From positions 62,001-126,000 of the forward strand of contig JAIYBT010000006.1 of the NCBI GenBank assembly GCA_027488395.1: a DNA stretch of 64,000 nt, in the 5' to 3' direction. The stretch is from Methylophilaceae bacterium. GTDB lineage: Bacteria; Pseudomonadota; Gammaproteobacteria; Burkholderiales; Methylophilaceae. The notes below the pieces were generated by a model, which did no database searches, was not told the DNA's origin, and saw only the letters and a program-made list of their open reading frames with translations. A program made the translations under genes and the position numbers. Below are positions 57,341 through 60,121 of the stretch, piece after piece (position 1 is the first letter of the stretch; each line of letters begins with the position of its first letter).

Positions 57341-60121
57341 ATGCGTAATTCTATCTTTTTTGTATTGGTGGTCGCCACCATTCAAAGTGGTTGCGGTTCT
57401 AAGTTGCCTTCAGTAAAACCTTTTAAAATGGAAATCCAGCAAGGCAATGTGGTGACATCTAAAATGTTACTGCAACTGCGCCCTGGGATGACCCGCTCAC
57501 AAGTGCGTTACATCATGGGTACGCCTTTGATTGTAGATAGTTTTAGAGATAATCGTTGGGATTATTTTTATGAATTGCGCAAACAAGGTGTGGTCGTTGA
57601 AAAACGCCGTGTCATTTTAGATTTTGATAAAGATAGCTTGCTTGCAGTGCGAGGGGATGTGATACCAAGCGCGGACAATGCAGAGATAAAAACGATCGCT
57701 GAGGCGCCAAAAGTGGTGGTGGATGAATCAGCGCATTGGACTGAAAAGCTTAAATTTTGGAAAGAGGAAGCGGCCACCGCGCCTGCACCCCTCGCAAATG
57801 CGACTGCTGCAGCACCAGCACTAGCATCACCTTCTACTGCATTAAAAGACGCGCCGCCAGTCGTGGCGCTTGAATCTGCTGTGTCAGCAACCAACACAAC
57901 AGCGGCTACTTCAGCCGAATCCACGCTTGCTGCGGCAGTGATAACAGCCGCGCCCGCAGCGCAGTCTGCTGATTCCGCACCGATGCCAGCAACATCAACG
58001 CAACTTGAACCATCCAAAGTTGATTCTGCAAATAAACCTACCGCTAATGTAGATGCTGTGGTGATTGCAGATCAACAAGCGGCACAAGCTGTCATTGCCG
58101 ATTTGCAAGTTGAAACACCAGTCGCGGCAATCATCCCAGCACCCGTGACGAGTGCAACCACAGCTGTGCCGCAGGTTGAGGCTGCAGTGGCTACGCAACC
58201 CGGTGCGACAGGCATTGCAATTGCCTCAGCGGCAACAGCCATCAACGCTGCGGATGCGTCTTCTGCGAAGAACACGCAAGCGGAAAAGACGGAGACGGTA
58301 AAACGCGTATCCACTAGCACTGAAGCTATCCAAACCCCTACAGCTATCCAAAACCCTACAGCAATCCAAAACCCAAGTGTTGAGCCTGCCTCATCTGCAG
58401 CCGCTTTAGCGCGACCAGCGCCAAAATCTGCGATTACGCGCCCAGCCTCTGGCGCGAAACCAACCTTGTTTTTAACCACAAGGCCTCCCATACAAGCATC
58501 TAATCTAGCGCCGCTCGCGCCCACGGTCACCAAATCCAAGCCCAAGATGGCACCGATTGCGCCTGTGCCGATGGCAGCAAATGATGATGAAATTGTGCCA
58601 TTTATTCCAGAGGGTGAATATCAAGGCCCTGGACCTACGCCAGACGAAATGCTCAAAGGCAATGCCGAAGAGTTGGTGACGCCTATGGTTGAAGCGGCTA
58701 CGCAAACAGTCACTGAAAAAGGGGTGGCGCCTGATGTTAAGGCGGAGGCAGAAGCCGTGTTTATTGCCGAACAGCTGCCCGAGCCAGCGATAGAACCAGC
58801 ACCTCAAGCAGAGGCGCCGCTGGTGATTCCGCAAGCGGTCATTGCAGCACGTGAAAAAGCAAAAGCTGAGATGGCTAAATTAGAGGCTTTGAAAGCTGAA
58901 CTCGCGAAAGCAGAAGCCGCAAAGGCCGCCGCGGCCACTGCTGAGTTGCCTCAATCTGAGATTGCACACGCTGACCTTGGCAACGTTGAGGCATTGCCCC
59001 AAACCCAAGCCCAAACCATTGCGCAGTCCGCTAGCGTACCGTTAGCAGGCTCAGCAATGGCAAGTGATGATCATAGCGCTGCCGATGCTCTTTCCGCAGC
59101 CGTCACCAGTGATGTTGCCAATACGCCAGCGCTACCGACAACCACCGCAGCATCTGATAGAACGATTGCTGGCACTGCCGCTGGGTCCGCTGCAATTGCG
59201 TTGTCCGATATGCAGCCGGCTGCCAATCCAGAAGCGCTTATACAGGCGGATGTTTCTGCATGGGCACAAGCTTGGCGGGGCAAACAAATTAAACCCTATC
59301 TAGCCGCCTATGCCGCTGATTTTGTGCCTGAGGGTGCGCCAAGTAAGCAAGTATGGGAAGCGCAGCGTCGGCAACGTTTATCAGGCAAGCAAGGGGATAT
59401 TCGCTTGGTGCTAAAAGATGTGGTGATAAAGCAGGACGGCAATCTTGCCAGCGTGCAGTTTGAACAGCAGTATTCAGCAAAAAACTACAGTGATAAGTTG
59501 ATTAAAACGTTGCAGATGCGGTTTGATCTAGCGCTCGGGCATTGGTTGATTACCCGTGAGCAGACTGCGCCTGTAGCACGATTGGCGGCTGCTGAAGGAG
59601 TAAATGCTGAATCGGCAGGTATCCAGCCAACTGCCAAAGTTGAAGCAATGCCAGATTTACCGACAGTCGCTGCACCAGTCACCGCCTCTATGGCAAGCTT
59701 ACCTGATGCAAAAGCGTCTGTAGCCTCTTGGGCACAGGCTTGGCAACGCAAAGATATTGCTGCTTATTTGGCGGCATATGCGCCCGAGTTTACACCCGAA
59801 GGCTTGCCCTCACGCCAAGCTTGGGTAGCCCAACGAACATCACGGTTATCACTTAAACAAGGCCCGATTGCAGTTGAATTAAGCGATGTGGTTGTTGAGC
59901 AATCCGAAACCACTGCCAAAGTCAGCTTTCATCAAAAATATAGCGCAAAGGCCTATCGCGATGAGACGCAAAAAACATTACAGTTGCGCTTTGATTCAAT
60001 CGCCAACGCATGGTTAATTGTCAAAGAAACGACCCGTGCAGATGCGACGCAACAAGCGGTAGCTGCGCCAGCCGCTTCCGTAACACCAGCAGACAGTGTG
60101 TTGGATCCCATTGGTTTTTAG
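57341..60121 (+). CDS. Giant BamE-like lipoprotein with tandem NTF2-like C-terminal domains
   Basis: A 926-residue secreted lipoprotein. Residues 1-110 are BamE (SmpA/OmlA): signal and lipobox IQSGCGS, then VTSKMLLQLRPGMTRSQVRYIMGTP and WDYFYELRKQGVVVEKRRVILDF. Residues about 111-630 are a low-complexity Ala/Pro/Thr linker, including an 18-bp triplicated repeat (58325-58378) and a charged helix (about 502-535, AREKAKAEMAKLEALKAELAKAE). Two related domains follow at about 631-741 and 791-900; each reads like ASWAQAWxxKxIxxYLAAYA ... LRFD ... WLI, an NTF2-like fold of the type found at the C-terminus of some L,D-transpeptidase proteins. Normal BamE is about 110-180 residues. A GTG at 57332 is the alternative start. 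It is divergent from fur and upstream of dapB. Confidence 0.9.
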   Translation: MRNSIFFVLVVATIQSGCGSKLPSVKPFKMEIQQGNVVTSKMLLQLRPGMTRSQVRYIMGTPLIVDSFRDNRWDYFYELRKQGVVVEKRRVILDFDKDSLLAVRGDVIPSADNAEIKTIAEAPKVVVDESAHWTEKLKFWKEEAATAPAPLANATAAAPALASPSTALKDAPPVVALESAVSATNTTAATSAESTLAAAVITAAPAAQSADSAPMPATSTQLEPSKVDSANKPTANVDAVVIADQQAAQAVIADLQVETPVAAIIPAPVTSATTAVPQVEAAVATQPGATGIAIASAATAINAADASSAKNTQAEKTETVKRVSTSTEAIQTPTAIQNPTAIQNPSVEPASSAAALARPAPKSAITRPASGAKPTLFLTTRPPIQASNLAPLAPTVTKSKPKMAPIAPVPMAANDDEIVPFIPEGEYQGPGPTPDEMLKGNAEELVTPMVEAATQTVTEKGVAPDVKAEAEAVFIAEQLPEPAIEPAPQAEAPLVIPQAVIAAREKAKAEMAKLEALKAELAKAEAAKAAAATAELPQSEIAHADLGNVEALPQTQAQTIAQSASVPLAGSAMASDDHSAADALSAAVTSDVANTPALPTTTAASDRTIAGTAAGSAAIALSDMQPAANPEALIQADVSAWAQAWRGKQIKPYLAAYAADFVPEGAPSKQVWEAQRRQRLSGKQGDIRLVLKDVVIKQDGNLASVQFEQQYSAKNYSDKLIKTLQMRFDLALGHWLITREQTAPVARLAAAEGVNAESAGIQPTAKVEAMPDLPTVAAPVTASMASLPDAKASVASWAQAWQRKDIAAYLAAYAPEFTPEGLPSRQAWVAQRTSRLSLKQGPIAVELSDVVVEQSETTAKVSFHQKYSAKAYRDETQKTLQLRFDSIANAWLIVKETTRADATQQAVAAPAASVTPADSVLDPIGF
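58325..58378 (+). repeat. Triplicated 18-bp repeat in the BamE-like gene
   Basis: Three tandem copies of the type GCTATCCAAAACCCTACA encode AIQTPT, AIQNPT and AIQNPS. Copies two and three differ at a few positions, so the expansion is probably not very recent. It preserves frame and lies in the disordered linker. Confidence 0.9.

Follow-up and report, generated by a model that had tools for sequence, protein, structure and literature searches.

The BamE-NTF2 Fusion Gene

The analyzed stretch of DNA, called the window in the following, covers 64,000 nucleotides from the genome of a methanol-consuming Methylophilaceae bacterium (assembly GCA_027488395.1, contig JAIYBT010000006.1, positions 62,001 to 126,000). 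It contains a gene coding for BamE, a lipoprotein of the outer membrane β-barrel assembly machinery (BAM), fused to a long linker and two NTF2-like domains. The gene is a single unbroken frame of 926 codons from the ATG at position 57341 to the stop codon at 60119-60121, and an alternative GTG start (57332) is located three codons upstream of the ATG. This in-frame arrangement had been read from the sequence in an initial annotation and is confirmed here by the frame and by the Pfam scan: the fusion is real. Another 13 genomes from the window's genus have a frame of the same kind, with BamE, linker and two NTF2 domains. Since these assemblies are independent, an assembly artefact or a frameshift joining two genes is excluded.

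The N-terminal head scored 86 bits with the Pfam family BamE (PF04355, cut-off 23.2) and matched BamE chains in the PDB (9pxg, 8.5e-26; 5d0o, 4.7e-11), in support of the BamE head noted initially. It is preceded by a hydrophobic stretch followed by Cys18, which is invariant in all 67 aligned BamE rows. The residues at positions -3 to -1 before this cysteine are Q-S-G, unlike the textbook lipobox. The genome, which is 91.67% complete (about 8% may be missing), yielded no second bamE, the fusion being its only BamE match. On sequence grounds the fusion is the organism's BamE, and it would presumably reside in the BAM complex. That the fusion is an additional paralogue accompanying a canonical bamE is unsupported, given this single match. 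Furthermore, the head is weakly similar to the N-terminal domain of TpgA (9vnj, E 0.0011). With 14 bits against a cut-off of 350 (E 0.021) in the NCBIfam equivalog model, an identity with TpgA was rejected.

The linker between the domain matches comprises 521 residues and is the longest among the fusions measured. In the full-length model 476 of the 926 residues have a predicted local distance difference test (pLDDT) value below 50, most of them in the linker, in agreement with the disordered spacer of about 520 residues described initially. The model consists of a signal helix, the BamE fold, the linker with a lone helix at residues 498-532, and the NTF2 domains with values above 90 in most blocks. 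Linkers of 31-101 residues were measured in Gallionellaceae-type fusions and of 127-421 residues in other Methylophilaceae fusions. Because the length thus ranges from 31 to 521 residues, the span is not a conserved property, and the earlier argument that the linker would reach across much of the periplasm is left unsupported.

Two C-terminal stretches matched the Pfam family PF24125 (Cds6_C, NTF2-like) with 89.4 bits for the whole protein (cut-off 27) and the best stretch at residues 792-896. The label Cds6 presumably stands for Csd6 of Helicobacter. The two repeats, first placed at residues 631-741 and 791-900, were found at about 631-744 and 788-903, and the W-A-Q-A-W stretch, AAYA, the Q-R pair and WLI are all present in the alignment. 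A separate model of residues 614-926 has the same two NTF2-like domains with pLDDT above 90; its predicted template modelling score of 0.50 is due to the undefined mutual placement of the two domains. In a Foldseek search this model matched Pgp2 (22-23% identity, 2.9-3.9 Å over 112 columns) and Csd6 (22% identity, 2.9 Å over 116 columns). The rows for Bd1075 extend over both domains with a root-mean-square deviation of about 20 Å and therefore give no usable superposition. With the domain profile, the best PDB matches were Bd1075 (7o21, 4e-11), Csd6 (4xzz, 1.7e-4) and Pgp2 (6xj6, 3.2e-4). The initial recognition of a domain type known from the C-termini of L,D-transpeptidases was borne out by these matches and by a transpeptidase-like protein of the same genome. 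A Pfam scan of all 926 residues (E up to 1) gave neither a YkuD-type catalytic domain nor an OmpA-type domain (PF00691).

Table 1. Coordinates of the fusion gene and its parts (window positions) and of further genes with BamE or NTF2-like domains (locus positions).
Feature	Position	Strand	Basis
Whole gene, BamE-linker-NTF2-NTF2 fusion, 926 aa	57341..60121	+	Stop-free frame; Pfam
Putative lipoprotein signal, residues 1-18, ends at Cys18	57341..57394	+	Sequence
BamE domain, residues 35-102	57443..57646	+	PF04355; BamE chains in PDB
Ala/Pro-rich linker, mostly predicted disordered, includes helices 133-140 and 498-532	57647..59230	+	Full-length model
Predicted helix 133-140 with Lys138-Phe139-Trp140	57737..57760	+	Model
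18-bp tandem repeat, 2.8 copies, within linker	58324..58374	+	Tandem Repeats Finder
Lone predicted helix 498-532, Ala/Lys/Glu-rich	58832..58936	+	Full-length model
NTF2-like domain 1, residues 631-744, pocket lysine K722	59231..59572	+	Pfam, alignment, model
NTF2-like domain 2, residues 788-903, pocket Y809, F817, R832, K878	59702..60049	+	Pfam, alignment, model
C-terminal Ile-Gly-Phe, remnant of the FERMLEKIGF-type end of relatives	60110..60118	+	Alignment
Ferriphaselus sp. R-1, separate 871-residue protein with four NTF2 domains	L139:1227-3842	+	
Ferriphaselus sp. R-1, bamE, 118 residues	L139:3869-4225	+	
G587, 686-residue frame, BamE-like domain and three NTF2 domains	L214:1386-3443	-	
G189, BamE-like protein fused to one NTF2 domain	L172:955-1836	+	
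TPR protein and protein reading as L,D-transpeptidase, same genome as the fusion	L003:772-1833, L003:1875-3155	+, +	
TolC-type proteins with NTF2 domain	L145:1899-3902, L149:1044-2930, L158:1498-3273, L159:25-1836, L164:1501-3315	+, +, -, +, -	
G453, 801-residue frame with NTF2 and FimV N-terminal domains	L160:931-3333	+	

Conservation of the Pocket That Binds Peptidoglycan in Pgp2

In Pgp2 of Campylobacter jejuni, the pocket of the NTF2-like domain binds peptidoglycan fragments according to nuclear magnetic resonance (NMR) data; the residues Y233, F242, K257, K307 and E324 were mutated, and the K307A variant showed weak pull-down by sacculi (PMC8038945). The pocket was mapped onto the fusion by profile alignment, numbered from the residues named in that article. 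The first four residues correspond to alignment A1 positions 22, 30, 45 and 91, which are Y, F, R and K in all 27 rows, the partner of K257 thus being changed from Lys to Arg. In the present protein the partners of Y233, F242, K257 and K307 are those listed for the second domain (Table 1), and E324 probably corresponds to E896, a residue beyond the printed part of the alignment.

The partner of K307 is a lysine in all 134 domains compared (131 distinct), whether linked to BamE or not; locus L215 was left out of this set, as it is on the same contig as L139 of Ferriphaselus sp. R-1. Among the 80 domains which are linked to BamE or come from Ferriphaselus, the position of Y233 is occupied by Tyr (72) or Phe (8), that of F242 by Phe (72) or Tyr (8), and that of K257 by Arg (79) or Lys (1). 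By analogy with Pgp2, the NTF2 domains of the fusion may bind peptidoglycan.

Occurrence in Methylophilaceae and Other Families

A total of 70 bamE loci of Methylophilaceae were fetched, which were chosen as the 30 best BamE scores, genomes of the window's genus with a listed BamE position, two picks with long frames, and representatives. The architecture recurs as a same-frame fusion in 28 of them, 13 with two and 15 with one NTF2 domain, while 41 have none and one (L053), whose frame runs off the contig, was counted as cut off. Since the loci were selected, 28/70 is not a prevalence. Within the window's genus, the window included, 14 genomes have two NTF2 domains, five have one, one has none, one is cut off and one is without a BamE match among the matches listed. 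This genus includes the named Methylophilus, and M. methylotrophus DSM 46235 has the two-NTF2 form (locus L118). A search with the NTF2 profile gave 38 loci of named records, 23 of them BamE fusions.

Of 120 genomes from a family regarded as Gallionellaceae (f24), at least 15 also encode BamE and NTF2 within a single frame. This number is a lower bound, and further fusions with weaker scores may have escaped detection elsewhere; two NTF2 domains were detected in six and one in nine of these fusions. In a third family (f42) the fusion was found in 13 of 51 genomes, comprising eight of eight in one genus and five of seven in another. Two of these 13 were read as sequence, and the other eleven rest on a shared contig, strand and frame length together with neighbouring coordinates. 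In a fourth family, genome G189 encodes a BamE-like protein with one NTF2 domain, and another BamE match is located on a different contig.

In the genus Ferriphaselus, each of the three genomes examined (G386, G581 and G587) has a gene with several NTF2 domains that immediately precedes a short bamE. In Ferriphaselus sp. R-1 the four NTF2 domains of the separate protein are connected by Ala/Lys/Glu-rich joints, and the order is a recN-like gene, the four-NTF2 gene, bamE directly downstream of it, and a dapB-like gene. In G587 the frame directly upstream of the short bamE itself begins with a BamE-like domain and has three NTF2 domains. In the window, the fusion gene is followed after 31 bp by a dapB-like gene, and a fur-like gene lies upstream on the opposite strand. 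The names recN, fur, dapB, carA, transpeptidase and TPR are readings of the translations and not profile results.

Origin and Selection of the Fusion

In the approximately unbiased (AU) test, the Methylophilaceae BamE-NTF2 domains were compatible with one clade (p 0.359). One clade of Methylophilaceae and Gallionellaceae-type domains was borderline rejected (p 0.040), and with f42 the value was p 0.062. Several captures seem likelier than one ancient fusion, though not decisively so. The 18 two-domain Methylophilus rows form one supported set (95/99), which speaks for a duplication inside Methylophilus. The tree is based on 115 columns and 112 rows and has 39 open forks and an unsettled bootstrap, and its groups were named after the first quick tree. 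The second tree dropped L163, L173 and L177, which are copies of included genomes, as well as the long or odd L140, L151, L152, L153 and L172, and it placed L178 in the third family.

Both folded parts are under purifying selection. In the 12 pairs compared by the method of Nei and Gojobori (NG86), the ratio of non-synonymous to synonymous substitution rates (dN/dS), where computable, was 0.00-0.03 for BamE, 0.02-0.14 for NTF2 and 0.07-0.43 for the linker, with dS saturated or not computable in many cells of this comparison.

Conserved Motifs Outside the Domains

A motif [LMF]xFW follows the BamE domain in 62 of 67 aligned Methylophilaceae rows, in ten of them twice; here it is part of a short predicted helix (Table 1). 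All 67 aligned rows terminate in Gly-Phe, mostly as part of ends of the FERMLEKIGF type. Not included in alignment A3 are L006, which is truncated by the end of its contig, L015, L016 and L053. L015 and L016 also end in Ile-Gly-Phe, and the Gly-Phe end is found in 68 of the 70 loci with L006 and L053 as exceptions. The Methylophilus fusions have lost the aromatic part of this end and keep the IGF remnant. Similar ends (FFGRMLEKIGF, FFGKMLEKVGL and others) occur in six of 40 loci of other families of the order (L083, L100, L107, L108, L110, L114). The Lys-Phe-Trp motif and the Gly-Phe end, both shared with Methylophilaceae relatives (L007-L075), had not been pointed out in the initial annotation. 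They might act as short binding motifs or form amphipathic helices.

NTF2-Like Domains on Other Proteins

Two further proteins with an NTF2 domain are encoded by adjacent genes in the genome of the fusion, a TPR protein and a protein which reads as an L,D-transpeptidase, the latter named by motif and not by profile. In addition, five of ten scanned proteins of the TolC efflux type carry an NTF2 domain at the C-terminus, and in G453 such a domain stands ahead of a FimV N-terminal domain. The occurrence on transpeptidase-like, TPR, TolC-type and FimV-domain proteins fits a general module which may grip the cell wall.

A Possible Link Between BAM and the Cell Wall

The fusion is probably a coupler between BAM and the wall, or a reader of the wall, i.e., a BamE with an added wall-binding module, and a probability of about 0.6 is assigned to this reading. 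The BamE head would dock on BAM beneath the outer membrane. Through the flexible arm the two NTF2-like domains could extend to the sacculus, where their conserved pocket with its aromatic residues and lysine would hold the stem peptides of peptidoglycan, as in Campylobacter Pgp2. BAM would thereby be kept near, or made responsive to, a wall of given composition, and the link between both would be covalent in a BamE with NTF2 arms. The arm may influence the position or activity of BAM, by anchoring, positioning or gating it. The initial proposal of a protein linking BAM to peptidoglycan is in part upheld, by the kind of NTF2 domain, the conserved pocket and the repeated coupling across families, but not by the reach of the linker, and wall binding and BAM residence are steps that we infer.

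In E. coli, BAM proteins including soluble BamE were reported to bind tetrapeptide wall chains in vitro, and a wall rich in tetrapeptides lowers BAM activity whereas a pentapeptide-rich one has little effect (PMC9242858). A more tentative, though possible, extension is a built-in reader of wall maturation: the pocket would tell stem-peptide states apart, BAM would preferentially insert outer-membrane proteins where the wall is of one age, and separate lineages would have converged on a covalent version of the several weaker contacts of E. coli.

The fusion shares with known BamE (SmpA/OmlA, PF04355) the BamE domain, a putative lipoprotein-type signal and the status of the only copy found in the genome, but the matched solved entries have about 87-176 residues, whereas the present protein has two NTF2 domains on a long arm. 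Its C-terminus belongs to the same PF24125 family as the NTF2-like C-termini of Csd6, Pgp2 and Bd1075, with the same fold and pocket residues; theirs, however, are joined to an L,D-carboxypeptidase, whereas here they stand in tandem with no catalytic domain found by Pfam. The wall-binding domain of TpgA is of the OmpA type. Acinetobacter TpgA likewise joins a head, weakly similar to the BamE found here, to a wall-binding domain, but it serves a trimeric autotransporter (PMC13082670), and an OmpA-type domain is absent from the scan of the fusion. In Caulobacter, BAM is joined to the wall via the peptidoglycan-binding lipoprotein Pal (PMC2797634), which is a separate OmpA-domain protein, whereas here the unrelated domain is a covalent part of BamE. 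In the titles and abstract beginnings of the papers listed by searches of an open-access library, a scope that excludes most subscription papers and all bioRxiv preprints, no description of a BamE-NTF2 fusion was found.

Several observations weigh against a BAM-wall coupler. The head reached 47.1 bits with the NCBIfam BamE equivalog PRK11548, below its cut-off of 93, although this model is for short BamE proteins and the head passes the Pfam and PDB tests. The first Foldseek rank is an epoxide hydrolase, and the top ranks are other NTF2-fold proteins. The pocket is kept throughout the domain family and is not specific to BamE, and its conservation therefore supports a retained function but not a BamE-specific one. 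For Pgp2, strong pull-down needed both the catalytic and the NTF2 domain, and catalytic-site mutants bound poorly (PMC8038945), so that an isolated NTF2 domain may grip weakly. In E. coli cells, BamA and BamC were cross-linked to the wall, not BamB or BamE (PMC9242858). The genome also encodes a Pal-like lipoprotein with an OmpA domain, one of six PF00691 matches and another wall link, so that the NTF2 arm would be an additional one. Finally, because the 41 family loci mentioned above have no NTF2 domain, the arm is dispensable at the family level.

The NTF2 domains might instead be protein-protein adaptors, which bring, e.g., the transpeptidase-like or the TPR protein to BAM without contact to the wall. 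The functional diversity of NTF2 folds, which also counts against the coupler, and the side-by-side genes of two other NTF2-domain proteins would agree with this, as would the NTF2 domain of Bdellovibrio, which has been reported to direct the enzyme carrying it to one face of the cell through an unknown cue (PMC8938487). We regard adaptors as unlikely but worth considering, since the published ligand of the closest characterized domain is peptidoglycan (PMC8038945) and the lysine and aromatics of the pocket are kept in the 80 BamE-linked or Ferriphaselus domains. It is improbable that the pocket holds an envelope sugar, a lipid or a small molecule in place of wall peptides: many NTF2 relatives are enzymes or bind small ligands, but the same domain occurs on wall enzymes, and NMR places wall fragments in the pocket of Pgp2 (PMC8038945).

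A spare domain, caught passively at the end of a disordered tail and without a role in BAM, would account for NTF2 counts from zero to two within one genus and for the widely varying linkers. It seems very improbable in view of the low dN/dS of NTF2 where computable, the invariant pocket residues, and a fusion which recurs in three families, with separate adjacent genes as a fourth arrangement. An artefactual joining of two genes has practically no weight left; BamE and NTF2 are indeed separate genes in Ferriphaselus, but nothing in the window speaks for such an event, and the set of loci includes named isolates of Methylophilus.

How the outer membrane and the wall are coordinated during growth is still an open question. 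Here a BAM subunit seems to have acquired a domain of wall-binding type, which probably happened more than once, and the BamE-NTF2 pairing recurring in other families points to a possible physical connection of membrane assembly with the wall. In the cultivable methylotroph M. methylotrophus DSM 46235, such a link could be cut without touching the core of BAM.

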